DNA of 64,000 nucleotides from Carboxylicivirga caseinilyticus (GTDB taxonomy: Bacteria > Bacteroidota > Bacteroidia > Bacteroidales > Marinilabiliaceae), in NCBI GenBank assembly GCA_025499705.1, contig JAFMVE010000022.1, positions 1 to 64,000 on the forward strand, written 5' to 3'. The notes below the pieces were generated by a model, which made no database searches, was not told the DNA's origin, and saw only the letters and a program-made list of their open reading frames with translations. A program made the position numbers and the translations under genes. Below are positions 23,682-41,885 of this stretch, in pieces; the stretch's first letter is position 1; each line of letters begins with the position of its first letter.

Positions 23682-25118
23682 ATGCAGAAATTAAGTAACG
23701 AAACATTAAAACGTGAAGAGTATCCCGTAAAAATTTTACAATTCGGGGAGGGTAATTTTTTAAGGGCTTTTGTTGATTGGATGATCAATAAAGCAAACAA
23801 AGAGATTGGTTTTAACAGAGGAGTAGCAATAGTGCAGCCATTAGAGAATGGTTTGGTGCCAATGCTGAAAGAACAGGATTGTCTTTACCATGTAAAGCTC
23901 GAAGGGATGAAAGATGGTAACCCCATTACACAAACAGAGTTGGTCGATGCTGTTCAGGATGCATTAAATCCATATAGCGAATACGAAAAGTACCAGCAAT
24001 ATTTTTTAAGTCCTGAACTGGAACTGGTTGTTTCAAACACTACAGAGGCTGGTATCTCAAGAGTGGAGAATGAGGATATTTATGCTAAGCCTCCAAAATC
24101 ATTTCCGGGCAAGGTATGTCAGTTGTTGTATCAACGATATGAACATTTTAACGGAGCAGCTGATAAAGGCATTACTTTCTTTTGCTGTGAGCTGATTGAT
24201 AAAAATGCTACAGTACTGAAGGAAATTGTATTTGAATTAGCTGAACAAAATAACCTGGGAGAAGGGTTCATTAACTGGTTAAACGAAAGCTGTAATTTCT
24301 GCAGTACGCTGGTTGACCGCATTGTTACAGGTTTTCCAAAAGATAATATCAAAGAGATTCAGGCTGAATTAGGTTACGAAGATAACCTGGTTGTGGTAGG
24401 TGAATATTTTCATTTATGGGCTATTGAGGCACCGGATCATGTAAGGGAACAATTTCCGTTCGACAAAGCAGGTTTAAATGTTGTTTGGTTGAATGACATG
24501 ACCAAATTCCGAGATAAGAAAGTGCGCATTTTAAATGGTTCACATTCTGCAATGGTTGCCTTAAGTATGCTAAGCGGATATCAAACTGTAATGGAGGCTT
24601 TTAATGATGAGACCATTTCAGAATTCATCCAAAACATGGTAAGTGAAGAGGTGAGTCCTAATATCGCAGGAGACAAAGAGGCGCTCAAAGTTTTTGCAGA
24701 CGAAATTCTGGAACGTTTCTATAATCCATACATTAAGCATTACCTTAAGGATATTTCATTAAACTCTATATCAAAATGGGTAACCCGCGATTATCCTTCA
24801 TTAATCGATTCATTTAATCGGACAGGAGAATTGCCAAAGCGATTAACTTTATCATTAGCAGCCTTGATTACTTTGTATAAAGGTGAATACAACGGTTTGT
24901 CATTTAGTATTACAGACACTCCCGAATATGTTCAATTTATTCAGAACGAATGGAGTAGTGCTAAAAGTGTGAATGAGAAAGTGGAAACTATTTTATCAAA
25001 TAAGGAAGTCTGGGGTGTAGATTTTACAGCTATTGATGACCTTATTGCTGAAGTAGCAACATATGTTAATGCCATCTTAGCAGAAGGTATTGCAACTGTA
25101 TTGAAAAAAGTAGCATAA
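23682..25118 (+). CDS. uxaB: Tagaturonate reductase (altronate oxidoreductase)
   Basis: UxaB reduces D-tagaturonate to D-altronate with NADH in the cytoplasm, the second step of the classical galacturonate route. The 478-residue protein shows the long-chain mannitol dehydrogenase family plan: a nucleotide-binding start with GEGNFLRAFVDWMI (about 21-35) and the catalytic block KVRILNGSHSAM (about 281-292). It is followed 3 bases later by uxaA, so the two successive enzymes are co-expressed. Within the family, fructuronate reductase (UxuB) is the main alternative, but an SDR in the minus-strand operon already fits that role and pairing with altronate dehydratase favours UxaB. Confidence 0.93.
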   Translation: MQKLSNETLKREEYPVKILQFGEGNFLRAFVDWMINKANKEIGFNRGVAIVQPLENGLVPMLKEQDCLYHVKLEGMKDGNPITQTELVDAVQDALNPYSEYEKYQQYFLSPELELVVSNTTEAGISRVENEDIYAKPPKSFPGKVCQLLYQRYEHFNGAADKGITFFCCELIDKNATVLKEIVFELAEQNNLGEGFINWLNESCNFCSTLVDRIVTGFPKDNIKEIQAELGYEDNLVVVGEYFHLWAIEAPDHVREQFPFDKAGLNVVWLNDMTKFRDKKVRILNGSHSAMVALSMLSGYQTVMEAFNDETISEFIQNMVSEEVSPNIAGDKEALKVFADEILERFYNPYIKHYLKDISLNSISKWVTRDYPSLIDSFNRTGELPKRLTLSLAALITLYKGEYNGLSFSITDTPEYVQFIQNEWSSAKSVNEKVETILSNKEVWGVDFTAIDDLIAEVATYVNAILAEGIATVLKKVA

Positions 25119-25121
25119 ATA

Positions 25122-26609
25122 ATGAAGAACAGTATTAAAATTCACCCTGATGACAGTGTAGTGATTGCTTTGGAAGCAATCAGTAAAGGGGATTTGATTT
25201 TAGTTGAAGGGAATGAAATTGTGGTGAATGATGATGTTCCACAAGGGCATAAAATAGCGATAAAATCAATCAATAAAGGCGAGCATATATTAAAATATGC
25301 TGCCTCAATTGGTATCGCTCAGGCCGATATAAAAGTGGGTGATCATATTCATGTTCATAATTTACGTACCGGTTTAGGTGATAACCTGGCATACTGTTAC
25401 AATCCAAACGGGAAAGAAATACAAAGTTCTGCTGAAGGATTAACATTCAATGGATATCAAAGAGCAAACGGAGATGTTGGTATTAGAAATGAGTTATGGA
25501 TAGTACCAACCGTTGGATGTGTAAATGGTCAGGCTCGCTTAATAGCCAATCAGTTAAAACAAGAAGCTGATTTATCACACATCGATGATGTGGTGGTTTT
25601 AGGTCATCAGTATGGTTGTTCGCAGTTAGGAGATGATCATAGTAATACCCAAAGAGCCTTGTCGCAATTAATCAAGCATCCTAACGCAGGAGCAGTTCTG
25701 GTATTAGGACTTGGGTGTGAGAATAATCAGATCTCATCATTAAAAGAGGTGATTGGCGATTACAACGAAAGTCGTATTCGATTTTTGATTGCGCAAGAAG
25801 TAGAAGATGAGGTAGAGGTTGGTCTTGAAATGGTTAAGGAACTTGCTGAATTAATGAAGCAGGATAGCCGTACAGCCCAACCTGTGTCTAAACTACGTAT
25901 TGGTTTAAAATGCGGTGGCAGCGATGGTTTCTCTGGTATTACTGCAAATCCTTTATTGGGACGTTTCTCAGATTGGTTGGTAGGTCAGGGTGGTACAACT
26001 GTTCTGACTGAAGTGCCCGAAATGTTTGGTGCTGAAACCTTATTGATGGACAGGGCCGATTCGGAAAGTGTTTTTGATAAGACTGTTTCGATGATTAATG
26101 GCTTTAAGGATTATTTTCGTCGTCACGATCAACCAATTTACGAAAATCCTTCTCCTGGAAATAAGAATGGTGGAATTACTACTCTGGAAGAGAAATCTTT
26201 GGGGTGTGTTCAGAAAGGTGGTACAGCCATTGTAACCGATGTACTTGATTATGCTGATCCGATTGTCAAGAATGGATTGAATTTACTTTGGTCACCTGGT
26301 AATGATTTGGTTGCAGCTTCTGCACTGGGATTCTCAGGTTGCCAAATGGTACTATTTACTACCGGAAGAGGAACTCCGTTCGGAAGCTTTGTGCCAACAG
26401 TAAAAGTAGCCACCAATACCCAACTATTCGAGCATAAATCGAAATGGATGGACTTTAATGCAGGTGTGCTGGTTGAAGGTGCAGATATGAATGAAGTTCG
26501 TAAAGACTTTACAAATTATCTGATTGAAGTTGCCAACGGAAAGAAATTAAATCACGAAATAACAGATTTTAAGGAAATAGCCATTTTTAAGAGTGGTGTT
26601 ACATTATAA
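25122..26609 (+). CDS. uxaA: Altronate dehydratase
   Basis: UxaA dehydrates D-altronate to 2-keto-3-deoxygluconate. The 495-residue protein contains both parts of the family in one chain: an N-terminal SAF domain (about 1-95, with DHIHVHNL) and the large C-terminal domain with GCVNGQAR, GHQYGCSQLGDD and KCGGSDGFSGITANP. The conserved Cys and His residues suit a metal-dependent dehydratase. It follows uxaB by 3 bases and precedes a pectate lyase gene, so this short block joins intracellular galacturonate catabolism to pectin depolymerisation. Confidence 0.95.
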   Translation: MKNSIKIHPDDSVVIALEAISKGDLILVEGNEIVVNDDVPQGHKIAIKSINKGEHILKYAASIGIAQADIKVGDHIHVHNLRTGLGDNLAYCYNPNGKEIQSSAEGLTFNGYQRANGDVGIRNELWIVPTVGCVNGQARLIANQLKQEADLSHIDDVVVLGHQYGCSQLGDDHSNTQRALSQLIKHPNAGAVLVLGLGCENNQISSLKEVIGDYNESRIRFLIAQEVEDEVEVGLEMVKELAELMKQDSRTAQPVSKLRIGLKCGGSDGFSGITANPLLGRFSDWLVGQGGTTVLTEVPEMFGAETLLMDRADSESVFDKTVSMINGFKDYFRRHDQPIYENPSPGNKNGGITTLEEKSLGCVQKGGTAIVTDVLDYADPIVKNGLNLLWSPGNDLVAASALGFSGCQMVLFTTGRGTPFGSFVPTVKVATNTQLFEHKSKWMDFNAGVLVEGADMNEVRKDFTNYLIEVANGKKLNHEITDFKEIAIFKSGVTL

Positions 26610-26656: not shown

Positions 26657-28171
26657 ATGAAAAAAATAATTCTGACAGCATTTATGGTTTTGCTGACAAT
26701 GGGAATGGTTAAGGCCACAGACTATTATGTAGCAAAAACAGGCAGCGATTCCAATACAGGAACATCGTTGGATTCACCTCTTGCTAATGTTACAACAGCC
26801 ATTAGTAAGGCAGTAGCAGGTGATGTAATTTATATTCGTGAAGGAGAGTATAAATACTCGACTAAAATAAGCCTGAGTCGGAGTGGAACTGCAGCTAATC
26901 CAATTCAGATGATGGCTTATCAGAACGAAAAAGTGATCATCGATTTCTCGCAAATGGCACTTGATAGTGGTAACCGGGGATTTAGTTTGAGTGGTCAGTA
27001 TTGGATCATTAAAGGTTTGACCATCCGCAGAGCAGGTGATAACGGAATGTTTATTTCCGGAAGTTACAACACCGTTGAAAACTGTATTTTTTACGAGCAT
27101 CAGGATACGGGTCTTCAACTGGGAAATGGTGCTTCTGAAAATAATATTATCAACTGCGATAGCTACGGAAATGCTGATCCAACAGATTATGGTGATGCTG
27201 ATGGATTCGCCTGTAAAATGGATGTTGGAAACAATAACTATTTCTATGGATGTCGTTCATGGCTGAATGTAGATGATGGCTGGGACGGTTATTTGCGTGG
27301 GACAGATGATGTTTATACTGTTTTGGAGAACTGCTGGACATGGCGAAATGGATATTTCCTGAACGGAACAGATGCAGGAGCAAGTGCTAATGGAAATGGA
27401 TTTAAAGTTGGTGGAAGTGATGATAAAACGTTGATGCATAATTTTACCCTAATCAATTGTGTTGCTTTCGATAATAAAGCAAAGGGATTTGATCAGAATA
27501 ACAATAAGGGTGATATGTATTTCTATAACGGAACATCGTATCGGAATAAAGGAAATAATTATTCTATTCCTTCAGCAGTTAATTCAGCCAAAGAAGCTGA
27601 GGTTGTCAATTGTATTTCAGTAGAAGGAAGCAATAAAGTAAGCTTGACTTCAAGTGTATTGCAACAAACCAATAGCTGGAATGGGTTCACCTGTAATTCG
27701 GCTGATTTTGTTAGCCTCGATACGACGGGTGTTACCGGTCCGCGACAAGCAGATGGTAGCCTTCCTGATCTGGATGTTTTTAAACTGGTCCAGGGAAGCG
27801 ATCTGATTGATGGTGGCACTGATTTAGGTTATGATTTTTATGATGATGCTCCGGATTTAGGAGCCTTTGAAACCAACTACAATCAAACCGGGATATTTAG
27901 TCCTGTAAACGAGATTGATTACGAACTGTTTTTACATGGTAATCCTGTTACATCCAAAGTAAGATTTAGTTATCAGGCAGGTGAATTACCTTTAAAAGTA
28001 ACGGTTAATGTGGTATCACTTAATGGAAGCGTTATAGAATCTGTTAATTTGCCTGCTAAAGCATCAAGATGTTATGGCGAAGTTGATATAAATGCATGTT
28101 CGAATGGTATGTATATTCTTCAATTAGTATCGTCTAAAGGAATGCAGAGCAAATTGTTTGTTAAGCAATAA
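26657..28171 (+). CDS. Pectate lyase (PL9) with T9SS sorting tail
   Basis: This secreted lyase cleaves homogalacturonan. The 504-residue protein has a signal peptide (about 1-21), a right-handed beta-helix (about 25-405) and a C-terminal T9SS type A tail (about 420-504, ending GMYILQLVSSKGMQSKLFVKQ-like text). The PL9 residues line up well with the characterised Pel9A enzyme: calcium ligands Asp182, Asp206, Asp207 and Asp210, and the likely base Lys250 in NGFKVGG. The 24-residue gap from 182 to 206 and the DDxxD pattern match that family. The T9SS tail means it is exported by a route different from the lipoprotein PL1 enzymes. A terminator follows. Confidence 0.93.
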   Translation: MKKIILTAFMVLLTMGMVKATDYYVAKTGSDSNTGTSLDSPLANVTTAISKAVAGDVIYIREGEYKYSTKISLSRSGTAANPIQMMAYQNEKVIIDFSQMALDSGNRGFSLSGQYWIIKGLTIRRAGDNGMFISGSYNTVENCIFYEHQDTGLQLGNGASENNIINCDSYGNADPTDYGDADGFACKMDVGNNNYFYGCRSWLNVDDGWDGYLRGTDDVYTVLENCWTWRNGYFLNGTDAGASANGNGFKVGGSDDKTLMHNFTLINCVAFDNKAKGFDQNNNKGDMYFYNGTSYRNKGNNYSIPSAVNSAKEAEVVNCISVEGSNKVSLTSSVLQQTNSWNGFTCNSADFVSLDTTGVTGPRQADGSLPDLDVFKLVQGSDLIDGGTDLGYDFYDDAPDLGAFETNYNQTGIFSPVNEIDYELFLHGNPVTSKVRFSYQAGELPLKVTVNVVSLNGSVIESVNLPAKASRCYGEVDINACSNGMYILQLVSSKGMQSKLFVKQ

Positions 28172-29525: not shown

Positions 29526-29553
29526 AAAAAGAGGCAACCGAAAGGCTACCTCT
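29526..29553 (-). terminator. Rho-independent terminator after uxaE (minus strand)
   Basis: On the minus strand AGAGGTAGCC and GGTTGCCTCT form a 10-bp stem with two wobble pairs and a TTTC loop, followed by five T. It lies 22 bases past the uxaE stop. Confidence 0.75.
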
Positions 29554-29574
29554 TTATAGTAAAATATAAATCTA

Positions 29575-30825
29575 TTAAAGATCAAAAAGACGTTTTAGAT
29601 GTCGGTCGTAAATGTTTTCGTAAACGCACTCACCAATTATATCGGCATGTTTTTTCAAAAGTGGTAAGTAAACATCCGATTGTAGGGCAGCAAGTTTATA
29701 TGCCACATGAACTAACTGACGCATGTTGGGGTTGTACTGCGGATGGTCCGGAATATGACGAATAGCGTTTGCCATATCATCTGCACTCCAGTCGGCAATA
29801 GCTTCTTTCGATGGTAATTCATCTGTTTTAATATCAATTACATCAGCGTATGGCGCACATAGTTCATCGATTTTTGCTAAAGCCTTGCCATAAAGATCTT
29901 TAATAAACTGCAAAGCATCACCACCCGCCATTGACAAGCCAATAACTTCTTCTAACCATGTTGTGCCGGCTGTTTTTACATGGATTCCTTTATCCAGTTT
30001 TTTCAGGATGTTACCGATGTAAGGATAAATAGAAAATTTATCAGAGCCAGAGTGGACACTTAATTTAATTTCAGCAGGTAAGCCAAACTCAGCCACACAT
30101 TGATCCAATACATGCAGATCTTGTTCAAATTCTTTCGCAAAATCAAGTGGATTACCTGTGTAATCTACTCCTTTGTTGAATCGACCAGAGAATTTAGGGG
30201 CGATGGTCTGAACAGGAATTTTTTCAGCAGCCAGCATCTTTAATATAAAGAATAATTCAATTGGAGTCTGTGGTTTAGGAACTTCATCCATGGATACTTC
30301 AGTGATGAAATTTCCTTTTCCCTTGGCATCTTCTATAATTTTATAGATTGCTCCGGCTTTTTGTGCTGCAAATAGATACTGACCTGCCAGTTTCTTCAAG
30401 TCATCGCGTTTTACCTCAAAAGGTTCATCTATACCTGTAATCGAAACTTTTCCAATATAGATTTCACAACTGTTGATAAACGCATCGATGTCAGCGTCAG
30501 AGGCTGGTTTGCCAATATATCCGGCTACATCAATGGTGAAAAAGTCAGATGAAGGTAAAAAACGATCAACTGTATCCAGATTAATATGATCTGCATCTAC
30601 AAAGTATTGATTATCCCAACCCAACGCTTTAACGCTGGCATCAGCTTCCACACGAACGTCATCAGGATGAGTTCCTATAGTTGTATGTTCGCGGTTAGAT
30701 TTGTTCCAGACAGGGCAAATATCATAACCCATGTCACGAACTTTTATTACAGCCTTTAGCTGGGCATTGCCCTGGTGACCAAAACGGTCGCCTACACCAA
30801 AGGAGTACTTCGATAATTTTTTCAT
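29575..30825 (-). CDS. uxaE: Tagaturonate 3-epimerase family protein (UxaE)
   Basis: UxaE interconverts D-tagaturonate and D-fructuronate, letting galacturonate enter the glucuronate branch. The activity was described for a Thermotoga homologue. The 416-residue protein has family-like blocks: YSFGVGDRFGHQGNAQLKA at the start, QTIAPKFSGRFNKGVDYTG (about 218-236), SVHSGSDKFSIYP (about 265-277) and a His/Asp-rich end (RHIPDHPQYNPNMRQLVHVAYK region). It is soluble, with no signal peptide. It lies downstream of a LacI regulator in a hexuronate locus that holds UxaC, UxaB and an SDR fructuronate reductase, which makes the assignment sensible. The assignment is from memory of the family, not from a search. 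Confidence 0.8.
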   Translation of the reverse strand: MKKLSKYSFGVGDRFGHQGNAQLKAVIKVRDMGYDICPVWNKSNREHTTIGTHPDDVRVEADASVKALGWDNQYFVDADHINLDTVDRFLPSSDFFTIDVAGYIGKPASDADIDAFINSCEIYIGKVSITGIDEPFEVKRDDLKKLAGQYLFAAQKAGAIYKIIEDAKGKGNFITEVSMDEVPKPQTPIELFFILKMLAAEKIPVQTIAPKFSGRFNKGVDYTGNPLDFAKEFEQDLHVLDQCVAEFGLPAEIKLSVHSGSDKFSIYPYIGNILKKLDKGIHVKTAGTTWLEEVIGLSMAGGDALQFIKDLYGKALAKIDELCAPYADVIDIKTDELPSKEAIADWSADDMANAIRHIPDHPQYNPNMRQLVHVAYKLAALQSDVYLPLLKKHADIIGECVYENIYDRHLKRLFDL

Positions 30826-30928: not shown

Positions 30929-31981
30929 TTAAAACAATCCCATGTTTTCAGCATTGACAATGTCAATGGGTTGAAATTCTTTCTTTTCAGGAATTGTATT
31001 TAAAGTCAGATAATCAAACAGCTTTTTAAATGCTTTCTCAGCTTGTTCAACAGGTCGTTGTCCAATTAAAAATTGAATAACTCTTCGTTGAAGGTAGGTT
31101 ACATTTTTCCCAAATAATTCATAACCTACCAGAAATATGTCACGTTTACCCTTATTATATAAATATTCGGCAACCGAATATGTTCTTGAACTTGAAACAA
31201 GAATGGCCCCGATATTATTTTCTTTATCAAAAATTGGATCCAGCACTTCTGACACTACATTAGGCTGGGCACTCGGTATTTCAATGCTTATTTTCTCACC
31301 TGTATTAATTCCGGCGTCCATAAAATAGCTCAGAAATCCTTTGTTACGACTGTTCAGATGCTGCGTATTTTCCAAATCGAGCGACATATTCACAATCAAT
31401 ACATCTTTATCTTTTGTTATGCCCATGTCAATAAGGCTGGCAGCAACACGTCCACTTTGATATGCATCTTCTCCTAAAAATGTCAGGCAATTGGTGTTAT
31501 TAATGAAAGTATCAATAAAAACATAGGGAATATTTTCATCATCCAGTAAATGACAAAAAGTATCCGATTCCTTTTTCATTATAGGAGCAAAAATAACTCC
31601 GTGAGGCTGCCAATTCAGAATAGACTTTGTTTTGTCTTCAAAGTCAGAAGTATTATACATCTCATAACGGTAAAACTGTGTCTGAACCGTAAATGGCTGA
31701 ACAGCCTCAACTCCATTTAATATGCCCTGTGGATGTTTATCCCAGAAGAGGTTGTCGCCATAACTTTGAGGTATTAAAACGGCAATGCGATAGGCTGTTG
31801 AAGATTTTAATACACGAGCCGCAATATTGGGTTGATATTTCAACTCTTTTGCAATCTCTAAAATACGGGTTTTAGTTTCAGCTTTAACCTCGCCACGATT
31901 GTGTAATACTCTGTCAACTGTACCAATAGAAACACCTGCTTTTTCAGCAATGTCCTTTATTCGGGTCTTTCTGCCGTTCAT
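30929..31981 (-). CDS. LacI-family transcriptional regulator
   Basis: The 350-residue regulator has an N-terminal LacI helix-turn-helix (about 4-26, TRIKDIAEKAGVSIGTVDRVL) and a periplasmic-binding-protein-like sensor domain (about 62-340). It lies between exuT and uxaE on the same strand, 103 bases before uxaE, after a hairpin that may end the exuT operon. It is therefore a likely local regulator of uxaE and perhaps of the whole hexuronate operon, with a sugar acid as effector. The second LacI protein of the window (41951) is clearly different in sequence, so the two probably answer to different signals. Confidence 0.9.
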   Translation of the reverse strand: MNGRKTRIKDIAEKAGVSIGTVDRVLHNRGEVKAETKTRILEIAKELKYQPNIAARVLKSSTAYRIAVLIPQSYGDNLFWDKHPQGILNGVEAVQPFTVQTQFYRYEMYNTSDFEDKTKSILNWQPHGVIFAPIMKKESDTFCHLLDDENIPYVFIDTFINNTNCLTFLGEDAYQSGRVAASLIDMGITKDKDVLIVNMSLDLENTQHLNSRNKGFLSYFMDAGINTGEKISIEIPSAQPNVVSEVLDPIFDKENNIGAILVSSSRTYSVAEYLYNKGKRDIFLVGYELFGKNVTYLQRRVIQFLIGQRPVEQAEKAFKKLFDYLTLNTIPEKKEFQPIDIVNAENMGLF

Positions 31982-32059: not shown

Positions 32060-33511
32060 TTATTCAACAACGATTGGCTTATATTGAGGAACTAATGATT
32101 TCATAATGATCCATCCAATAAGGTAAGCAACCGCACAAATTGAGAAGATAATCAGATAACCAGAAGGTTTTCCTTCAAATCCGAATAATCTCATTTTTGA
32201 TTCATCTGCAAAATCAAATAAAAGACCAGATCCTTTATTAATCATTGCAGAACCGATACCTCCAGCCATACCACCGATACCTGTAATAGTTGCAATAGAT
32301 GATTTAGGGAACATATCTCCAATGGTAGAGAAGATGTTAGCCGACCAGGCCTGATGAGCTGCACCGGCAATACCGATAATGATGATAGGGAACCAATATG
32401 AATATGCTCCTAATGGTTGAGCCAATAAAGCAAGTAGTGGGAAGAAGGCAAAAATTAACATTGACTTCATTCGACCTGCATATGGGTTCATTCCTTTTTT
32501 ATCTACAAAATAAGTTGGTAACCAACCGCCAATGATTGATAATAAAGTAATGGCATACAACACAAATAATAAGACCTGAGCCATGGTAGTATCAGAAGTT
32601 AATCCATACACATCACTGATATACGCTGGTGTCCAGAATAAATAGAACCACCAAACACCGTCAGTCATAAACTTACCTACGATAAAAGCCCATGTTTGCT
32701 TATACTTAAAACTATTCCAGAAACCAATTTTATTTCCGGCTTTTTCAGTATCAACAGAATGCTCTTTAATAACTTCATCATCCTGGTTGATATAAGCTAA
32801 CTCAGCTGCATTTACTTTTGGATGCTCATTAGGTTTTTTATACATAAATACCCAGAATCCCATCCAGATAAAACCAAGCACACCAATTACTATAAATGCC
32901 ATTTCCCATCCAAAATAATGAGCTATGACAGGTACAGAAATAGGAGCTGCTAAAGCACCTACAGTAGCACCGGCATTAAAAATACTGGTTGCATAAGCAC
33001 GGTCTTTTTTAGGAAAGAATTCTGCAGTAGCTTTAATAGCTGCCGGAAAGTTACCTGCTTCACCAATGGCCAGTACAAAACGTGCAAAAATAAAGAGGGT
33101 CACACTTACACTGACAATGAGTCCAACATCTTTTACCTTTTCAATTGCATGCAGCGCCCCTTCGAAACCTACAAACCATTCACCTGCTACGATACCTGAA
33201 GTAGCAATGCCACAGAATGCATGTAATACGGCACCTACAGACCATACTCCAATAGCCCAAAGGAATCCTTTTCTAGTATCCATCCAGTCGACAAATCGAC
33301 CGGCTACTAAAAGTCCGATAGCATAAAATATGGAGAACAATGCGGTAATATTACCATAGTCTGAATCTGTCCAGTGGAATTCAGGTGCAATAAAGTCCTT
33401 CCATGTCAACGACAGAACCTGCCTGTCTAAGTAATTGATTGTTGTTGCAAAGAACAACAGTGCACAGATTGCCCATCTGTAGTTTGTCATTTTGTTTTGG
33501 TTACTAGCCAT
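32060..33511 (-). CDS. exuT: Hexuronate transporter, major facilitator superfamily
   Basis: This inner-membrane proton symporter is predicted to import galacturonate and glucuronate. The 483-residue protein has about 12 transmembrane helices and the ACS-family start (RWAICALLFFATTINYLDRQVLS, in part at about 12-34), as well as ARFVLAIGEAGNFPAAIKA near 140-158, typical of ExuT-like members. A polar insertion between helices 2 and 4 makes it slightly longer than the enterobacterial proteins. It is the last gene of the operon that encodes UxaC, KdgK, the KDPG aldolase, the fructuronate reductase, the LarA-like protein and Gnd. It is the only inner-membrane uronate carrier seen here. Confidence 0.9.
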   Translation of the reverse strand: MASNQNKMTNYRWAICALLFFATTINYLDRQVLSLTWKDFIAPEFHWTDSDYGNITALFSIFYAIGLLVAGRFVDWMDTRKGFLWAIGVWSVGAVLHAFCGIATSGIVAGEWFVGFEGALHAIEKVKDVGLIVSVSVTLFIFARFVLAIGEAGNFPAAIKATAEFFPKKDRAYATSIFNAGATVGALAAPISVPVIAHYFGWEMAFIVIGVLGFIWMGFWVFMYKKPNEHPKVNAAELAYINQDDEVIKEHSVDTEKAGNKIGFWNSFKYKQTWAFIVGKFMTDGVWWFYLFWTPAYISDVYGLTSDTTMAQVLLFVLYAITLLSIIGGWLPTYFVDKKGMNPYAGRMKSMLIFAFFPLLALLAQPLGAYSYWFPIIIIGIAGAAHQAWSANIFSTIGDMFPKSSIATITGIGGMAGGIGSAMINKGSGLLFDFADESKMRLFGFEGKPSGYLIIFSICAVAYLIGWIIMKSLVPQYKPIVVE

Positions 33512-33529: not shown

Positions 33530-34984
33530 TTATACATTATAAGTCGTCGATGCCGTATCACCACCTCTTCCTGTCCAGTTGGTATGGAAGAATTCGCCAC
33601 GAGGCTTGTCAATTCTTTCATAGGTATGTGCGCCAAAATAGTCGCGCTGAGCCTGTAACAGGTTGGCAGGTAAACGTTCACATCTGTATCCGTCAAAATA
33701 ATTTAAGGCAGTTGTTAAAGCAGGAGCCGGAATACCGTTAGTCAAGGCAGCAGCAGCTACTCTTCTCCAACCAGCCTGCGCTTTTTCAACTTTTTCTTTG
33801 AAGTAAGGATCCAGTAACAAGTTGGAAAGTTCGTTGTTATTATCGAATGCTTCCTTAATCTTACCTAAGAAAACAGAGCGAATAATACATCCGCCTCTCC
33901 ACATCAAAGCAATGCCTCCGTAATTTAGTTCCCATCCGTATTCTTCAGCAGCAGCACGCATCAAGGCATAACCTTGTGCATACGAAACAATTTTAGATGC
34001 AAAAAGAGCATCGCGTAGATCGTCAATTAATTGTTTTTTATCGCCAGTGAATGATGGTGTTGGTCCGCTTAATATTTTTGATGCTGCAACTCTTTCTTCT
34101 TTAATAGCTGATAAACAGCGAGAGAATACAGCTTCTCCAATCAAGGTTAATGGAATACCAAGATCTAGGGCTGCAACGCCAGTCCATTTACCGGTTCCTT
34201 TTTGACCTGCAGTATCCAGAATTTTATCTACTAACGGAGATCCATCTTCATCTTTAAAAGCAAGAATGTCGCGGGTGATTTCAGTCAGATAACTATCCAG
34301 GTCACCAGTGTTCCACTCTTTAAAAACTTCGTGCATTTCATCAGCCGACATACCCAACAGATCTTTCATAATCTGGTAAGCTTCGGTTATCAACTGCATA
34401 TCACCATATTCGATACCGTTATGAACCATTTTTACAAAGTGACCGGCTCCGTCTTCACCTACCCAGTCGCAACAAGGTGAGCCATCCTCAACTTTAGCTG
34501 CAATAGCCTGGAAAATAGGTTTCACCAAAGGCCATGCTTCTTTTGAACCACCAGGCATGATGGAAGGGCCTAATAATGCTCCTTCTTCACCACCTGACAC
34601 CCCGGTTCCGATATAAAGAATACCTTTTTCCTGAAGGTATTTAGTGCGTCGGTTGGTATCAGGGAAATGAGTGTTACCACCATCAATTAAAACATCTCCT
34701 TTTTCAAGATATGGAAGAATCGATTCAATGGTAGTATCAACTGCCGGACCTGCTTTGATCATCAACATGATTTTGCGTGGACGCTCAATTGAGGCAACAA
34801 ATTCTTCAAGGGAATGTGCTCCCCTGATATTTTTATCTTTTCCACGGTTGGCTAAAAAGTTATCTACTTTTTCGGTTGAACGGTTGAAAACACTTACAGT
34901 AAATCCTTTGCTTTCCATGTTTAGAACCAGGTTTTCGCCCATTACAGCCAATCCAACTAATCCTATGTCTGATAAATTTTTCAT
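33530..34984 (-). CDS. gnd: 6-phosphogluconate dehydrogenase, decarboxylating
   Basis: Gnd oxidises 6-phosphogluconate to ribulose 5-phosphate and CO2 and reduces NADP. The 484-residue protein has the full long-form architecture: an N-terminal dinucleotide fold (GLVGLAVMGENLVLNM), the catalytic region GAGHFVKMVHNGIEYGDMQL with the active Lys, and a complete C-terminal helical domain ending in FHTNWTGRGG. Finding it inside a hexuronate operon is unusual, since KDG routes do not pass through 6-phosphogluconate. It lies 24 bases after the LarA-like gene and 18 bases before exuT. With a LarA-type epimerase and a second sugar kinase upstream, it could complete a mannonate-to-gluconate shunt (see findings). 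Confidence 0.96.
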   Translation of the reverse strand: MKNLSDIGLVGLAVMGENLVLNMESKGFTVSVFNRSTEKVDNFLANRGKDKNIRGAHSLEEFVASIERPRKIMLMIKAGPAVDTTIESILPYLEKGDVLIDGGNTHFPDTNRRTKYLQEKGILYIGTGVSGGEEGALLGPSIMPGGSKEAWPLVKPIFQAIAAKVEDGSPCCDWVGEDGAGHFVKMVHNGIEYGDMQLITEAYQIMKDLLGMSADEMHEVFKEWNTGDLDSYLTEITRDILAFKDEDGSPLVDKILDTAGQKGTGKWTGVAALDLGIPLTLIGEAVFSRCLSAIKEERVAASKILSGPTPSFTGDKKQLIDDLRDALFASKIVSYAQGYALMRAAAEEYGWELNYGGIALMWRGGCIIRSVFLGKIKEAFDNNNELSNLLLDPYFKEKVEKAQAGWRRVAAAALTNGIPAPALTTALNYFDGYRCERLPANLLQAQRDYFGAHTYERIDKPRGEFFHTNWTGRGGDTASTTYNV

Positions 34985-35008
34985 TTTCTTGAAGGTTATT
35001 TTTATTTA

Positions 35009-36283
35009 TTAATCTTTAAATCGATCTGGGTGAGCCCAAAGACCCATAGCCGGATTGGAAATATAATAAATTTCTTCTCCATCGGGTAGTGTATTGAATC
35101 CATCAACTAACTTTTCTGGATTATAACGAGCTATCATCTCGTCCAGAGGAGCATATTTAAAGTTTACAGATTCAATCTCATCTTTTGTCAAATGACCTGG
35201 ACAGTAGGTGATTGAAAAACGTCCTTCGCTACTTCCGTGCATTAAATGAGCGGCAGCGCCAAGGTTGCTTTTTAAATCATCATTTTCTTCAATGGCTTTT
35301 AAAGTTGCAGGAGTTCCGCAGTAGCCATATTTGCGAATTAACTGGTCGATGGTAGCATCTTCACCAAATTCTTTTAGTGCGGGTGCCAGTACAATTAATT
35401 CGGCATTGTCTGCCAGGGCCATTCTGGTTCGATACACACTTTTATTACCTAGCCATGTGCTTTTAAACTCAGACGGATCTAAGTAAACAACCACTTTTTT
35501 AAGCGGTTGTTCAACCATTTTAAAATTAACCTTTAACGATAATGCTGCAGCCAATTCAAATACTTCAACATTATCTCCTATAAATAATCCACGAGTGACT
35601 GATTTGCCACTGTCGTCTTTACCTATTACTGTTAAAACATAGATGATAGGCAGGTGATTGGTGAAATTATCTGAAGCGTAGTTCAGCAATTGCCGAACCG
35701 GAGATTGAGTACGACCCATAATCCGTTCCATACCGTAAGCTGCACCCACAAAATGACTTTTGTTGATGCCTTCAGAACCTCCTGTACCAACAAATATGTT
35801 TTTGTTATAATTAGCCATACCTATTACTTCGTGTGGGACCACCTGACCAATGGATAGGATCAGATCATGTTCGCCATCAAGTAATAATTTATTTACCTGT
35901 GCTGGCCAGGTATAGTTTACCAGTCCTTCTGTTGCTTCAGATACATATTCGGCCGGAATCTCTCCAACTGTTACAATGTCGTTTCGCCAGTCATGCACTC
36001 TGAAAAGAGATGTCGGAACACCCTGAAACATATGGTTGATTTCTTCTGCAGTCATTGCTGCATGTGTTCCAAGAGCAGGTAAAACATCTTTTAGCTTATC
36101 GCCAAAATACTCATAGGTGAATGTTGTTAGCTCACCAGCCTTGGAATGAAATCTTGTATAATCGGGAGGAATTGCCAGTACTTTTTCCTTGTTACCCAGT
36201 TTTGTCAAAGCTTCAAACAAGCCTTTTTTCAAATCTGTATCACTGAGTACTGTATTTTCCGATCCTTTTTGATAGTAAATCAT
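35009..36283 (-). CDS. LarA-family nickel-dependent 2-hydroxyacid racemase/epimerase homologue
   Basis: The LarA superfamily racemises or epimerises 2-hydroxyacids with a nickel-pincer nucleotide cofactor. I use the ATG at 36283 (424 residues), 23 bases after the kinase stop; a longer frame would overlap that gene. Residues matching lactate racemase of Lactobacillus plantarum are visible: Asp41-Tyr-Thr-Arg44 (D72/R75), His74 (H108), His151 (H174), Lys161 (K184, cofactor attachment) and His177 (H200). The 10- and 16-residue spacings between the last three are identical. In this operon the natural substrate would be a sugar acid. D-gluconate 2-epimerases exist in this superfamily, and mannonate/gluconate fits best. 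It needs LarB, LarC and LarE-type maturation proteins, which are not in the window. Confidence 0.85.
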   Translation of the reverse strand: MIYYQKGSENTVLSDTDLKKGLFEALTKLGNKEKVLAIPPDYTRFHSKAGELTTFTYEYFGDKLKDVLPALGTHAAMTAEEINHMFQGVPTSLFRVHDWRNDIVTVGEIPAEYVSEATEGLVNYTWPAQVNKLLLDGEHDLILSIGQVVPHEVIGMANYNKNIFVGTGGSEGINKSHFVGAAYGMERIMGRTQSPVRQLLNYASDNFTNHLPIIYVLTVIGKDDSGKSVTRGLFIGDNVEVFELAAALSLKVNFKMVEQPLKKVVVYLDPSEFKSTWLGNKSVYRTRMALADNAELIVLAPALKEFGEDATIDQLIRKYGYCGTPATLKAIEENDDLKSNLGAAAHLMHGSSEGRFSITYCPGHLTKDEIESVNFKYAPLDEMIARYNPEKLVDGFNTLPDGEEIYYISNPAMGLWAHPDRFKD

Positions 36284-36306
36284 TGCTGTTGTTTTAAGAG
36301 TGCTGA

Positions 36307-37386
36307 TTAACGTTGAACTCTTGCGTTTCCTTCCCAGACACTCCAAACCATCGCTTCATCAGCTGGTTGGGCATAATCGGTAAGGAAGGTAGTTGCCAGG
36401 GCTCCTGAGGCCCATCCGAACTGCATGGCTTTTTCAGCCGGCATTTCTTTTAAAACACCATAAAGCAATCCACCCACAAAACCATCTCCGCCACCGATAC
36501 GATCCAAAACCGTAATCTGACGTGGTTCAATTACATGCCAGTTGGTATCTTGCAGCATTATTGCACCCCAAAGATGTTGGTTGGTGCTGATTACTTCGCG
36601 TAATGTGGTGGCAAAAATAGATGCTCCCGGATAAGTTGCTTTAACTCGGGTGATCATCTCTTTGAAACTATCAATTTTTGATTGCAAGCCTTCTCCACCT
36701 GCTTCGGGTCCTTCAATACCCAGGCATAACTGGAAATCTTCTTCGTTACCCACTAAAATATCGGAAACAGATGCTATCTCTGAAAATATTTCTCCTAATT
36801 CCTTTTCGCGACCTTTCCAGAATGTTGCTCTGTAATTTAAGTCAAAAGCAATTCGTGTACCATGTTTTTTTGCTGCTCTGGCCAATTCAAGGCAAAATTC
36901 ACTGGTCTCAGGCGAAAGGGCAGCTATCAAGCCTGAAAGATGTACAATCTGTACTCCATCCTGACCAAATAATTTTTCAATATCAAAATCCTTCACACTT
37001 AAAGTGCGACCTACTTCACCGGCACGGTCGTTTTGTACACGTGGTCCACGTGAACCATAACCGCTATCAGCAATATTAAACTGATGACGGTATCCCCATG
37101 GTCCTCCCTGAGGCACTTCCGGACCTTCAAAGTCCATATGACGGCCTTTAAGATTGCTTTTAATAAACTCGGCAATGGGGCTTCCCTGAACAAATTTTGT
37201 TAATACTTTTACCGGTAAACCCAGGTATGAAGCAATGCTTGCGACATTGGTTTCGGCACTTGTGGCATACATGGTAAATTGATCGCTGCTGTAAACGGGC
37301 TGGCCGTTTGGTGGCGTAATGCGAACACCCATACTGGTGGGTACTACCAGAGCATATTTGCAGTTGTTTTTCAATTGAATACTCAT
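36307..37386 (-). CDS. Second PfkB-family sugar kinase, substrate uncertain (proposed gluconate kinase)
   Basis: This 359-residue PfkB-fold kinase is related to the KdgK-type kinase of the same operon but is clearly divergent. It keeps the phosphate-binding and catalytic motif DRIGGGDGF with Asp301 and an AETNVA stretch near the sugar-binding lid. It lacks the FGGGEANVA form of KdgK and has a different N-terminus and a 60-90 region rewritten for another ligand. A second, different kinase in one operon implies a second substrate. Gluconate is the candidate, because the product would be 6-phosphogluconate for Gnd. Alternatives are another 2-keto sugar acid or redundant KDG phosphorylation. Position: 115 bases after the SDR gene and 23 before the LarA-like gene. 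Confidence 0.8.
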   Translation of the reverse strand: MSIQLKNNCKYALVVPTSMGVRITPPNGQPVYSSDQFTMYATSAETNVASIASYLGLPVKVLTKFVQGSPIAEFIKSNLKGRHMDFEGPEVPQGGPWGYRHQFNIADSGYGSRGPRVQNDRAGEVGRTLSVKDFDIEKLFGQDGVQIVHLSGLIAALSPETSEFCLELARAAKKHGTRIAFDLNYRATFWKGREKELGEIFSEIASVSDILVGNEEDFQLCLGIEGPEAGGEGLQSKIDSFKEMITRVKATYPGASIFATTLREVISTNQHLWGAIMLQDTNWHVIEPRQITVLDRIGGGDGFVGGLLYGVLKEMPAEKAMQFGWASGALATTFLTDYAQPADEAMVWSVWEGNARVQR

Positions 37387-37437
37387 TGTTATTTTGATCT
37401 AAGGGTTTTCAAGTATTTTACATTTGCTGGGAAGATA

Positions 37438-37466
37438 GCAGTAAATGGCATTTCACCATCTACTGC
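37438..37466 (-). other. Intercistronic hairpin between SDR and second kinase
   Basis: On the minus strand GCAGTAGATGG pairs with CCATTTACTGC over 11 bp (one wobble) with a 7-base loop. It sits in the 115-base gap between two operon genes and has no T-run, so it is more likely an mRNA processing or stabilising element than a terminator. It could mark the boundary between the classical and the proposed shunt modules. Confidence 0.5.
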
Positions 37467-37501
37467 CAAGAGTTTACTTCAATAATTGCAATTTATTTTG
37501 T

Positions 37502-38341
37502 TTAAACACCACTAAAGGCGCTAAAACCTCCATCAACAGGAACAACAACACCGGTAACGAATTTTGACCAGTCGGAAACCAAATATAATAAGGTTCCGGC
37601 CAGTTCTTCTGCGTCGCCGTAGCGTCCCATCGGTGTGTTATTTATAATTTTCTGTCCGCGAGGTGTTGGCGATTGAGTTTGCTCATCAACCAACAAAAAG
37701 CGATTTTGGTTAGTTAAGAAAAAACCAGGGGCAATGGCATTTACTCTGATTCCTGTTTGAGCAAAGTGTACTGCCATCCACTGCGTGAAATTGTTAATAG
37801 CAGCCTTAGCTGCCGAATATGCCGGAATCTTAGTGAGTGGCGTATAACTGTTCATCGAAGAAATATTGATGACAACACCGTTTCTTTTCTCCAGCATGTC
37901 TTTTGTAAAAATCAAAGAGGGTAGGAGTGTCCCTTTAAAATTAAGATCGAATACATTATCAAAACCTTCCATCTGCAAACCATAAAAGGTTTTTTCAAGG
38001 TCAGAAATGTTTTCTTCTGTAATCATCTCAACCTGTGTCGTGGCTGAAGCAGAGTTTCCTCCTGCACCGTTTATCAGATAGTCGATGGTACCTAATTCGT
38101 TGTGGATGATTTCCAATGCTTTTACAAGAGATTCCTTGTTTAAAACATCGGCAGAGATACCAATTGATTTAGAACCGGTTGCATCTTCAATTTCTTTGGC
38201 AACCTTATCAGCTGACTCCTGATTACGATTTAAAATGGCTGTTTTAACTCCTTTAGTGGCTAAACCATGAGCCATGGCAGAACAGAGTATTCCTGAACCG
38301 CCAGTAATTACCGCTACTTTGTTTTTTACATTTAATTCCAT
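37502..38341 (-). CDS. uxuB: SDR-family D-fructuronate reductase (mannonate oxidoreductase)
   Basis: This enzyme is predicted to reduce D-fructuronate to D-mannonate. The 279-residue classical SDR has the cofactor loop TGGSGILC (13-20), NGAGG (91-95), Ser162 and the YxxxK pair Tyr175/Lys179. The blocks NAIAPGFFLTNQNRFLL and the long insertion near 100-130 resemble the SDR-type fructuronate reductases of Firmicutes (Bacillus YjmF/UxuB) rather than KduD. It starts 3 bases after the aldolase gene and precedes the second kinase. It makes mannonate in a locus that has no mannonate dehydratase, which is the key to the shunt hypothesis. Confidence 0.82.
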   Translation of the reverse strand: MELNVKNKVAVITGGSGILCSAMAHGLATKGVKTAILNRNQESADKVAKEIEDATGSKSIGISADVLNKESLVKALEIIHNELGTIDYLINGAGGNSASATTQVEMITEENISDLEKTFYGLQMEGFDNVFDLNFKGTLLPSLIFTKDMLEKRNGVVINISSMNSYTPLTKIPAYSAAKAAINNFTQWMAVHFAQTGIRVNAIAPGFFLTNQNRFLLVDEQTQSPTPRGQKIINNTPMGRYGDAEELAGTLLYLVSDWSKFVTGVVVPVDGGFSAFSGV

Positions 38342-38344
38342 GGA

Positions 38345-39016
38345 TTAATTCTTTACTTCTTGGATATTAGCTATCAATTCTTTCACTTTATCAGCAAGGG
38401 CAGAATAGTTTTTAGCGTCCATAATATCCTTTGGAAATAAGTTTGATCCCATTCCCACACAGGTTACTCCTGCATCAAACCATTTTTTAAGGTTATCTTT
38501 TTCAGTGGTAACACCTCCTGTTGGCATTATATCAGTCCAAGGCATTGGAGCCTTAACTGCTTTTACAAAAGATGGTCCTCCAACTTCCGACGCAGGGAAT
38601 ACTTTAACTACTTCTGCACCTAATTCTTGTGCTTTATTAATTTCTGAAATGGTTCCGCAACCTGGCGACCACATTATTTTTCTGCGGTTACAGATGCGGG
38701 CCATGTTTTCATTCAATAATGGTGAAACAATAAAGTTAGCACCCGACTGAATGTATAAGGCAGTGGTTGCTTCTTCAACAATTGATCCGGCACCTAAAAT
38801 CATACCGGGCAATTCTTTTAAAGCATACTTGTTTAGTTCGCTGAATAGTTCGTGCGCAAAATCACCACGGTTAACGAATTCAAAAACACGAATTCCACCA
38901 TCATAACATGCTTTTACAACATTTTTACACACATCTAAATCGGCATGAAAAAACACAGGTACAACACCGGTTTCTTTCATCGCCATAAATACTTCTGTTC
39001 TGGAATATTTTGCCAT
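38345..39016 (-). CDS. eda: 2-keto-3-deoxy-6-phosphogluconate aldolase (bifunctional Eda family)
   Basis: This enzyme cleaves 2-keto-3-deoxy-6-phosphogluconate to pyruvate and glyceraldehyde 3-phosphate, the end of the KDG branch. The 223-residue TIM-barrel protein carries the Schiff-base lysine Lys138 in KVFPASEVGG and the phosphate-binding end MPTGGVTTEKDN. The usual Glu region reads EFVNRGDFA (about 46-54). It follows KdgK in the operon, after a 173-base gap with a strong hairpin and short repeats, and is 3 bases from the SDR gene. The family also cleaves 2-keto-4-hydroxyglutarate, but the context settles the role. Confidence 0.92.
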   Translation of the reverse strand: MAKYSRTEVFMAMKETGVVPVFFHADLDVCKNVVKACYDGGIRVFEFVNRGDFAHELFSELNKYALKELPGMILGAGSIVEEATTALYIQSGANFIVSPLLNENMARICNRRKIMWSPGCGTISEINKAQELGAEVVKVFPASEVGGPSFVKAVKAPMPWTDIMPTGGVTTEKDNLKKWFDAGVTCVGMGSNLFPKDIMDAKNYSALADKVKELIANIQEVKN

Positions 39017-39189: not shown

Positions 39190-40227
39190 TTATCGTGAAA
39201 CTCTTCCTGAAGCGTCGCCACCCATCAATTTCTCTACCTCTTCAACAGATACCTGGTTGAAATCACCCGGGATGGTATGTTTCAAACAAGATGCTGCTGT
39301 AGCAAAGTTGATGGCTTTCTGATCATCGCCTTCATAAGCAATTAAACCGTAGATTAAACCACCCATAAAAGAGTCTCCACCACCTACACGGTCAACAATG
39401 TGTGTAATTTGATAGGTAGGTGCCTGAAATAGGTTTTCACCATCGTAGATTACACCCGACCAGCTGTTGTGATTAGCACTTACCGATCCACGAAGGGTAG
39501 TAATTACTTTCTTGACGCGTGGGTATAATTTCATTATCTGTTGAGATACGCTACGATAAGCTTCTGCTTCAACGTGTCCACCAGTAATATCAACACCTTC
39601 AGGTTTGATACCCAATACCATTTCAGCATCTTCTTCGTTACCTAAAACAATGTCACAACCTGCAACGAGTTCCGGCATAACTTCAGAAGCTTTTTTGCCG
39701 TACTTCCATAGGTTTTTGCGATAGTTTAAGTCACATGTAACAGTAACTCCCATTTTATTAGCAACCTGAATGGCTTCCAGACATGCATCTGCAGCTCCCT
39801 GAGAAACAGCAGGTGTAATTCCTGTCCAGTGGAAGTAATCTGCATCCTTCAATATTTCTTCCCAGTTAAACATTCCTTTTCCAACTTCAGAGAAGGCTGA
39901 GTTTGCACGGTCGTATACCACTTTACTGGCACGTGCCACAGCTCCTGTTTCAAGGAAATAAATACCTAATCGATCTCCACCGTGAAGAATTTTGTCGGTA
40001 TTAACACCGTACTTTTGAAGATCCATCTGGCACGATTTACCAATGTCGTTGTTTGGTAATCGGGTAACAAATGAAACATCTACGCCATAGTTGGCAAGTG
40101 ATACAGCTACGTTAGCCTCGCCACCGCCAAAGGTAGCTTCAAATGATGTAGCTTGAGTAAAGCGCTGGTAACCAGGGGTGGCCAGACGTAACATGATTTC
40201 TCCAAAAGAGACTACTTTCTTTGACAT
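39190..40227 (-). CDS. kdgK: 2-keto-3-deoxygluconate kinase
   Basis: KdgK phosphorylates KDG, the common product of the altronate and unsaturated-uronate routes. The 345-residue PfkB-family protein has the KdgK-like lid region FGGGEANVAVSLANYG (about 33-48), CDLNYRKNLW (about 165-174) and the catalytic motif DRVGGGDSFMGG with Asp285. It follows uxaC by 5 bases. The better match to canonical KdgK text, compared with the second kinase downstream, is why it gets this name. Confidence 0.9.
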   Translation of the reverse strand: MSKKVVSFGEIMLRLATPGYQRFTQATSFEATFGGGEANVAVSLANYGVDVSFVTRLPNNDIGKSCQMDLQKYGVNTDKILHGGDRLGIYFLETGAVARASKVVYDRANSAFSEVGKGMFNWEEILKDADYFHWTGITPAVSQGAADACLEAIQVANKMGVTVTCDLNYRKNLWKYGKKASEVMPELVAGCDIVLGNEEDAEMVLGIKPEGVDITGGHVEAEAYRSVSQQIMKLYPRVKKVITTLRGSVSANHNSWSGVIYDGENLFQAPTYQITHIVDRVGGGDSFMGGLIYGLIAYEGDDQKAINFATAASCLKHTIPGDFNQVSVEEVEKLMGGDASGRVSR

Positions 40228-40232
40228 TTCTA

Positions 40233-41636
40233 TTAAAAATTAAAGTATGTTTTTGCGTTTTTATAGGAAACTCCTTCAACCATTTGTTTTAAGATAGATT
40301 CATCATTAGGAATCATACCTTTTTCAACTTCTTTACCCAGATGATTACAAACAATTCGACGGAAATACTCGTGACGAGGGTATGATAAGAAGCTACGGCT
40401 GTCGGTTACCATACCAACAAAGCGACTCAATAATCCCAAAGCAGAAAGGTCTAACAGATGTTTTTCCATTCCTGTTTTTTGATCAAGGAACCACCATGCT
40501 GCTCCATATTGTACTTTACCAACAGTAGAGCCATCGTTGAAATTACCACACATGGTAACCATCATCTCATTATCAGCTGGATTTAAGTTGTAAAGAATGG
40601 TTTTTGCCAACTGATCTGTGGTATCCAATAAGTTCAGGAATTGCGACATTTTAAGCGCATTCTGAGAATTGTTGATTGAATCCCAACCTGTGTCAGCTCC
40701 CATAATATTGAATTTACGGGTATTGTTGTTACGTAAAGCTCCAACGTGGAATTGTTGTGTCCATCCGCGTTTGTGATTTAACTTGGCCAATTCTGCCATT
40801 ACACAACAACGGTATTTTTCAGTTTCTTCTTCGTCAATTGTTTTACCAGCCATTAATTTTAGGAAGATTGCATTAACTTCCTCTTGAGTATAAGCAGCAA
40901 AGAAGAAGCGGTCTGGTCCACTATCAGAAGCTCGGGCACCTAATTCATGAAAATATGCATGGCGACGATCCAATGCTTCAATCAAATCAGTTAAAGATGA
41001 GATGGACACATCAGCAACTTCTCCTAATTTCTCAATGTATGCTTTGAATTGAACAGGATCTTCTGTTTTAATAACATTATCGGCACGATAGGTTGGCACG
41101 ACTTTAATATGATAACCTTCTTCTTTTAATTGCTTGTGATAGCGAAGATCGTCAGCAGGATCATCTGTAGTACCAACTACTTCTACATTTATCATCTCCA
41201 AAAGTTTTCTGGTACTGTAGTCTGGAGTTTGAATCATTGCTTTGGTAGTCTCAAAGATTTTTTCAGCTGTAACAGGAGAAAGTAAATCTGTGATGTTAAA
41301 ATAACGGGCAAGTTCCAGATGGGTCCAATGGTAAAGAGGATTACCAGCTGTGTAAGGAACTGTCTCAGCATATTTCATGAATTTCTCCTTGCCAGAAGCT
41401 TTGCCGTTACAATAGTGTTCGTCTACGCCGTTAATGCGCATTGCACGCCACTTGTAATGATCACCTTCCAGCCATATTTGTCCCAGACTCTCGAATTGAC
41501 GATCCTCGGCAATAAACTGTGGATTTAAATGACAATGGAAGTCAATGATTGGTTGGTTCTCTGAATACTCGTGGTATAATTTTTTTGAAGTCTCGGTTTC
41601 CAAAAGGAAATCCTTGTGTATAAATGGTTGCATCAT
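40233..41636 (-). CDS. uxaC: Uronate isomerase (glucuronate/galacturonate isomerase)
   Basis: UxaC converts D-galacturonate to D-tagaturonate and D-glucuronate to D-fructuronate, the entry step of both routes. The 467-residue amidohydrolase-fold protein carries the metal-binding start IDFHCHLNP (about 31-39), EVVGTTDDPADDL (about 155-167) and RFVGMVTDSRSFLSYPRHEYFRR near the C-terminus. It is the first gene of the eight-gene minus-strand operon and lies divergent to lacI-kduI. An adjacent second Met does not change the reading. Confidence 0.97.
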   Translation of the reverse strand: MMQPFIHKDFLLETETSKKLYHEYSENQPIIDFHCHLNPQFIAEDRQFESLGQIWLEGDHYKWRAMRINGVDEHYCNGKASGKEKFMKYAETVPYTAGNPLYHWTHLELARYFNITDLLSPVTAEKIFETTKAMIQTPDYSTRKLLEMINVEVVGTTDDPADDLRYHKQLKEEGYHIKVVPTYRADNVIKTEDPVQFKAYIEKLGEVADVSISSLTDLIEALDRRHAYFHELGARASDSGPDRFFFAAYTQEEVNAIFLKLMAGKTIDEEETEKYRCCVMAELAKLNHKRGWTQQFHVGALRNNNTRKFNIMGADTGWDSINNSQNALKMSQFLNLLDTTDQLAKTILYNLNPADNEMMVTMCGNFNDGSTVGKVQYGAAWWFLDQKTGMEKHLLDLSALGLLSRFVGMVTDSRSFLSYPRHEYFRRIVCNHLGKEVEKGMIPNDESILKQMVEGVSYKNAKTYFNF

Positions 41637-41855: not shown

Positions 41856-41885
41856 TTGTTTTGTGTGCAAACGATTGTATTTTTG
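41856..41885 (+). promoter_or_regulatory. Bacteroidota promoter for lacI-kduI-kdgF-kduD with LacI-type operator
   Basis: TTG at 41856-41858, exactly 19 bases, then TATTTTTG at 41878-41885 is a full match to the Bacteroidota promoter. Within the spacer lies TGCAAACGATTGTA (41866-41879), a near-palindrome with the central CG typical of LacI-family operators. A repressor bound there would block the polymerase. The most likely binder is the LacI protein encoded 66 bases downstream, giving autoregulation. Confidence 0.75.

Follow-up and report, generated by a model that had tools for sequence, protein, structure and literature searches.

A hexuronate gene cluster of Carboxylicivirga caseinilyticus with a possible LarA-type branch from mannonate to the pentose phosphate pathway

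Carboxylicivirga caseinilyticus carries, in the first 64,000 nucleotides of contig JAFMVE010000022.1 (contig C60 in our numbering; this whole stretch is called the window here), a run of hexuronate genes that also holds a 6-phosphogluconate dehydrogenase (Gnd), a second, divergent kinase of the PfkB type (PfkB2) and a homologue of LarA. What do these three genes do among genes for uronate breakdown? The favoured answer, to which a probability of about one half is given as a joint figure for the whole explanation, is that the locus represents an operon for hexuronate catabolism from which there are two exits, one of them a branch from mannonate through 6-phosphogluconate to ribulose 5-phosphate by way of LarA, PfkB2 and Gnd, working like the route proposed for Thermotoga maritima. 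A first-pass annotation of this DNA had placed a short-chain dehydrogenase/reductase (SDR), a divergent PfkB kinase, a LarA homologue and Gnd in that order in one run, and coordinates and family models bear this out. The run comprises ten genes on the minus strand, from 41636 to 29575, with intergenic gaps of 3-173 bases:

40233..41636, minus strand: UxaC, glucuronate/galacturonate isomerase (PF02614; NF002794, 610 bits)
39190..40227, minus strand: KdgK, 2-keto-3-deoxygluconate (KDG) kinase (best PDB match the Thermotoga KDG kinase 2afb, E 3e-103; below the NCBIfam KDG kinase cut-offs)
38345..39016, minus strand: Eda, 2-keto-3-deoxy-6-phosphogluconate (KDPG) aldolase (NF005499, 363 bits, cut-off 275)
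37502..38341, minus strand: SDR, fructuronate reductase (D-mannonate oxidoreductase; NF006132, 401 bits, cut-off 281)
36307..37386, minus strand: PfkB2, divergent PfkB kinase, proposed gluconate or mannonate kinase (PF00294)
35009..36283, minus strand: LarA homologue, group 18, putative hexonate C2-epimerase (NF052594, 668 bits, cut-off 500)
33530..34984, minus strand: Gnd, 6-phosphogluconate dehydrogenase (decarboxylating; TIGR00873, 785 bits, cut-off 427)
32060..33511, minus strand: major facilitator superfamily transporter, possibly for hexuronates or hexonates (PF07690; TIGR00893, 164 bits, below the cut-off of 395)
30929..31981, minus strand: LacI-type regulator, called from a reading of the sequence alone, without a family search
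29575..30825, minus strand: UxaE, tagaturonate epimerase (PF16257, 184.5 bits)

For LarA the list of open reading frames gives a TTG start at 36346; the ATG at 36283 agrees with relatives and yields a protein of 424 amino acids.

Judged by their families, UxaC and UxaE would bring glucuronate and galacturonate to fructuronate, which the SDR would reduce to D-mannonate, a step supported by the linkage to UxuA described below. The group-18 LarA would epimerise D-mannonate at C2 to D-gluconate, PfkB2 would phosphorylate this to 6-phosphogluconate, and Gnd, whose family assignment is firm, would form ribulose 5-phosphate, CO2 and NADPH. KdgK and Eda would serve the other exit, through KDG, supplied by UxaA of the window and also by the UxuA encoded elsewhere in the genome. 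The branch towards the pentoses is supported by the membership of LarA in NF052594 and its residues, the family of the SDR and its linkage to UxuA, the conserved gene set, the single clustered Gnd, the genomes that miss UxuA or Zwf, and the site changes of PfkB2. Of the conversion of mannonate to gluconate and on to 6-phosphogluconate drawn in the first-pass annotation, the gene contents and these lines of evidence uphold the overall course, and less so the order of the kinase and epimerase steps.

The window LarA passes the NCBIfam model NF052594, named "nickel-dependent putative hexonate epimerase". This family is equated here with group 18 of the LarAH proteins in Desguin 2020 (PMC7583248; papers cited here by PMC number were available in part, and statements resting on them refer to the available text), a group suggested to be a hexonate epimerase on account of signature features that it shares with the mannonate- and gluconate-epimerising groups 19 and 20. 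Equivalents of the LarA residues D72, R75, H108, H174, K184, H200 and K298 are present in the window protein and likewise in each of the 102 aligned group-18 sequences (101 distinct); the numbering is that of PMC7583248, and equivalence was established through alignment to the structure 4nar and matching spacing, with L. plantarum LarA outside the alignments. Gluconate epimerases carry a signature of E, V, A and H at LarA positions 175, 176, 358 and 359 together with a W in helix 11 (PMC11770544, PMC7583248), of which the E, V and W are clear in the window protein. By sequence its sole relative of solved structure is 4nar (123 bits), which is also the best match of the predicted fold (mean predicted local distance difference test score, pLDDT, 87.7; TM 0.78). 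We take 4nar to be TM0442, the Thermotoga GntE2. Identity as a lactate or malate racemase was rejected, as malate models score 21-32 bits and no lactate racemase model is listed.

The gene set was compared across two collections. Among 395 evenly sampled Bacteroidota genomes, the own genome being one of them, 41 match NF052594, 22 of these above its cut-off, and neighbourhoods were fetched for the other 21 above-cut-off loci and for nine weaker ones; in the 22 group-18 loci, the window included, an SDR lies near LarA in 20 and Gnd in 21. In named genomes, scanning yielded at least 577 relatives; the best 80 were taken, so that this collection leans to close relatives, and the 46 loci flanked on each side by 4 kb or more were counted and the 34 with shorter flanks left out. 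Within 5 kb of LarA, these 46 hold an SDR in 44 cases and Gnd in 42, those SDRs that were matched in L130 and L164 being only 36-39% identical and placed elsewhere, as well as a kinase of the window type (25 loci), of a second type (6) or of PF00365 (5), and a LacI relative in 24. Where an SDR lies upstream of LarA and a kinase is matched, the kinase stands between the two in 45 of 48 loci (of the 80). The closest LarA among the fetched loci, from Carboxylicivirga linearis (91% identical), has the same cluster order, and the set recurs round group-18 LarA in other families and phyla, which argues that the grouping is more than chance; by their record titles, group-18 loci also occur in Ignavibacteria, Verrucomicrobia and Planctomycetota. 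A transketolase follows Gnd in one locus (L032). LarA proteins outside group 18 are accompanied by SDR and Gnd in four of nine such loci (L053, L054, L055 and L060), and that of L055 is nearer to Thermotoga GntE2, at 229 bits to 4nar compared with the 123 bits of the window protein.

In 9 of the 80 loci the first gene matched after the SDR is UxuA, 36-277 bases away, the SDR being 56-70% identical to that of the window in six of them and 44-45% in three; this makes mannonate the likely branch metabolite. It also speaks against an alternative, which we regard as improbable, in which LarA turns fructuronate into 5-keto-gluconate and the SDR reduces this to gluconate, or in which the substrate of LarA is altronate or a different hexonate. 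Fructuronate is the 5-keto form of mannonate, which counts in favour of such a scheme, and the window SDR does score on three gluconate 5-dehydrogenase models; however, these scores of 139-163 bits are far under the cut-offs of 279-408, whereas the D-mannonate oxidoreductase model is passed well above its own.

Genome-wide counts concern the 22 group-18 genomes of the even sample. Each has exactly one Gnd over the cut-off, in 21 cases within the LarA cluster, and two (G039 and G377) hold a second relative below the cut-off (233-242 bits) beside Zwf. UxuA is present in 7 genomes (own included) and missing in 15, and Zwf is present in 15 (own included) and missing in 7; six are without both. The seven genomes with Gnd and without Zwf need another source of 6-phosphogluconate.

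PfkB2 passes no NCBIfam cut-off; its best KDG kinase model gives 105 bits against a cut-off of 440, which the neighbouring KdgK, at 222 bits, does not reach either, and none of the 16 families that PfkB2 matches is a gluconokinase family. The predicted model (mean pLDDT 88.2) matches KDG kinases best, and two arginines and the catalytic Asp of KdgK are kept. At two substrate-site positions, however, PfkB2 has Asn where KdgK and the Thermus enzyme have Tyr, and the two tyrosines of KdgK presumably contact KDG. A role as a second KDG kinase is disfavoured. Among 23 aligned kinases, six are Asn/Asn at these positions (the window included), 11 Val/Tyr and three Tyr/Tyr (the KdgK type); Asn at the first position is also found in three KdgK-like kinases of other loci, which are Asn/Tyr. 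In L040 and L042 the PfkB slot is taken by a PF00365 kinase, that of L042 passing a diphosphate-fructose-6-phosphate phosphotransferase subfamily model. There, the kinase (L042:6638-7918) and a HAD hydrolase of 296 amino acids (7939-8829) together replace the PfkB kinase between SDR and LarA, and a similar arrangement is seen in L040, L160, L173, L174 and L180, with family searches covering L040 and L042.

The position of the kinase gene between SDR and LarA would also suit the reverse order of reactions, in which PfkB2 is a mannonate kinase and the group-18 LarA a 6-phosphomannonate 2-epimerase that gives 6-phosphogluconate directly. Such a pathway has been measured in extracts of Lactobacillus suebicus, where its genes were not identified (PMC6978723), and the high Km of known enzymes for free mannonate would fit it. 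All aligned group-18 members have Arg at 285 and 287, where nine other LarA proteins have Lys and Glu, and these arginines could help bind phosphate; the conserved Arg 355, in contrast, is common to group 18 and the nine others and so is no mark of the group. Reaction order need not mirror gene order, however, and the three characterised LarA gluconate epimerases, Thermotoga GntE2, GntE1 and LarAH15, act on mannonate or gluconate as free acids (PMC7583248, PMC11770544). A kinase-first order is held to be a fairly unlikely variant, and the sequence of epimerase, kinase and Gnd is retained as the working scheme.

Several observations weigh against the branch as proposed. One genome (G176) has its single Gnd outside the LarA cluster. 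Zwf is no rarer with group 18 (15/22) than in other Bacteroidota (10/20), and these 20 genomes are a control set for Zwf, the counts of UxuA and Gnd coming from group-18 genomes only. Ten of the 46 well-flanked loci have none of the three kinase types within 5 kb. The A,H pair of the epimerase signature depends on the alignment, matching 4nar in the phmmer alignment and lying two residues off in the profile alignment, and the pair is absent from nine other LarA proteins as aligned. Known epimerases have Km values for mannonate of about 4-120 mM (PMC7583248, PMC11770544), and among the matches listed in searches of the mostly open-access literature, as far as its available text goes, no paper with an assay of group 18 was recognised; within the same scope there was no recognised assay of a PfkB gluconokinase and no recognised work on LarA without maturation genes.

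The own genome itself adds to this side. UxuA is not among the 11 window proteins searched, in keeping with the first-pass annotation; its absence from the organism is ruled out, since contig C79 holds the genome's single UxuA, next to which lies another SDR of NF006132 (366 bits; 44% identity with the window SDR). With both enzymes encoded elsewhere, the branch would be additional in this organism, and the idea that it replaces the UxuA route there has to be given up. The annotation had reckoned that a uxuA elsewhere, taken together with a lack of epimerase activity, would undo its scheme; the gene on C79 is the first half of that pair alone. The window Gnd is the only one over the cut-off in a genome that also has Zwf, and it may therefore also be the housekeeping enzyme. 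Taken further, this would mean that no dedicated branch exists, Gnd being a housekeeping enzyme of the oxidative pentose phosphate pathway that lies here by chance, with LarA and the kinase serving external gluconate or mannonate. The seven group-18 genomes with Gnd and no Zwf, and a linkage to uronate genes that is kept across families, argue against it, and this explanation too appears improbable.

A further difficulty for the branch concerns the nickel-pincer cofactor (NPN). LarB, LarC and LarE were sought in 36 genomes: the 22 with group 18, nine with other LarA and five without a LarA match. The full trio is encoded in seven of the 22; the own genome combines LarB and LarE with a short LarC, and the remaining 14, with a stated completeness of 98-100%, have none over the cut-off. 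Genomes outside group 18 can be missing the genes too, as five of those with other LarA have all three genes and four (G167, G179, G207 and G270) have none; the five without a LarA match have none. Even so, LarC is enriched with group 18, at 8/22 against 16/373 others over the cut-off (Fisher p 1e-5, uncorrected for relatedness). In 50 named group-18 genomes, many of them metagenome assemblies, in which LarC only was sought, 29 have it (short in three of them and split into two pieces in one) and 21 lack it; with both sets pooled and the one common genome counted once (G093, the genome of L133), the number without LarC is 34 among 71 distinct genomes. Between genomes with and without it, alignment revealed no LarA difference at catalytic or cofactor positions. 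Among genomes whose LarA lies outside group 18 and is accompanied by SDR and Gnd, those of L054, L055 and L060 have LarB, LarC and LarE (the LarC match of the L055 genome with one stop), and that of L053 has none.

In the own genome LarB scores 179.8 bits (cut-off 175) and LarE 262 (cut-off 150); LarB is paired with a below-cut-off LarE at L099:2778-4343 (C72), and a second LarE lies on C44. The LarC, at L065:8959-9774 (C101), is a form of 271 amino acids without the C-terminal part, with 85.3 bits on TIGR00299 against a cut-off of 90 and PF01969 over its cut-off in two pieces. An assembly error was rejected as its cause, because the same short form, in open frames of 268-284 amino acids, is found in three other related genomes. 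Of the maturation genes thought worth seeking in the genome, LarB and LarE were thus found, and LarC in its short form only. The nickel dependence claimed by the first-pass annotation is put in doubt for group 18 by the 14 genomes without any maturation gene. With LarC missing in 34/71 genomes and all three genes in 14/22, yet the seven residues invariant in 101/101 distinct proteins, it is tentatively suggested, as a somewhat unlikely reading, that group-18 LarA is active in bacteria unable to make the cofactor, either because NPN is scavenged and shared like a vitamin or because another hydride carrier occupies the same site. The missing genes bear on whether NPN can be acquired or replaced.

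A PdxB-like 2-hydroxyacid dehydrogenase is encoded near LarA and Gnd in a number of loci (L033:6683-7903, L055:6119-7279 and L117 near 11429 among others), with matches in 36 of the 80 named ones. Two such proteins were searched against NCBIfam: at 450 bits the first is over the PdxB cut-off of 434, and the second, at 426, is just below it; a HAD hydrolase is matched in 8/80 loci, and one or other of the two in 36 of the 61 loci with Gnd. 4-Phosphoerythronate inhibits 6-phosphogluconate dehydrogenase (PMC6449344), and the PdxB-like protein may clear it, guarding Gnd. The gene is commoner without LarC (14/21 against 9/29, p 0.02, uncorrected for relatedness), from which nothing is concluded. 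A Gfo/Idh/MocA oxidoreductase, mostly of about 330 amino acids, also occurs beside LarA (L114:10266-11261, L117:10383-11396 and 27 similar open reading frames, 2 of the 29 being checked with Pfam).

The idea of the route is already known from Thermotoga, for which passage from mannonate to gluconate and the pentose phosphate pathway was proposed by Rodionova in 2012 (according to PMC7583248 and PMC6978723) and the epimerase shown to act on mannonate by Desguin in 2020 (PMC7583248); UxaE, described there as well, is also part of the window run. The T. maritima hexuronate network, with GntE2 and a gluconokinase, and the scheme proposed here are alike in a LarA-type conversion of mannonate to gluconate followed by 6-phosphogluconate and Gnd, and the window shows the Thermotoga-type gene contents, with a fructuronate reductase, a LarA-type epimerase, a kinase and Gnd grouped among uronate genes. 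They differ in that the window LarA belongs to subgroup 18 instead of 20, as its low score to 4nar reflects, and in the PfkB-type kinase, the T. maritima gluconokinase presumably being of another class. The L. suebicus pathway of Valk 2020 (PMC6978723), described from extracts without genes, likewise starts from mannonate and leads through 6-phosphogluconate to Gnd, but the kinase acts first there and a phosphoketolase lies below Gnd. The classical route of UxuB, UxuA, KdgK and Eda ends in KDPG cleavage and the proposed branch in the pentose phosphate pathway; SDR, KdgK and Eda of that route are in the window. Uronate carbon also reaches gluconate in the fungal glucuronate route via 5-keto-gluconate, which uses other enzymes and intermediates, no LarA being named in the available text (PMC4870679, PMC5814732). 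For group 18, of which the window LarA is a member by the curated cut-off, a hexonate epimerase function has already been suggested in papers (PMC7583248).

If the favoured explanation is true, a LarA-type route from plant and algal uronates to pentose phosphate would be widespread in Bacteroidota and would extend, beyond Thermotoga, to Ignavibacteria, Verrucomicrobia and Planctomycetota. LarAH group 18 would gain a function, a PfkB-type gluconate or mannonate kinase would be indicated, and the locus might furnish the genes behind the L. suebicus pathway.

The remaining features of the window concern the end of the run and a second, separate run that holds UxaA:

29528..29555, minus strand: terminator-like hairpin of 12 pairs, the longest of its scan, directly past UxaE
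23682..25118, plus strand: UxaB, tagaturonate reductase (NF002969, 608 bits, cut-off 359)
25122..26609, plus strand: UxaA, altronate dehydratase (PF20629, PF04295, PF08666)

The hairpin is weak evidence that the run ends there because the scan found 14 terminator-like sites, near the chance level of 9.9 (standard deviation 2.6) in shuffled sequence. Directly past UxaA, at 26657-28171, lies a gene for a protein of 504 amino acids with a signal-like start, which by eye resembles a parallel beta-helix polysaccharide enzyme. A motif search of the window for a shared operator found nothing with a strict pattern; a loose one matched at 18 places, none of them upstream of uxaB. One of the 18 is a LacI-type operator-like near-palindrome, TGCAAACGATTGTA, at 41866 in the divergent intergenic region between uxaC and a second LacI gene, lacI2.

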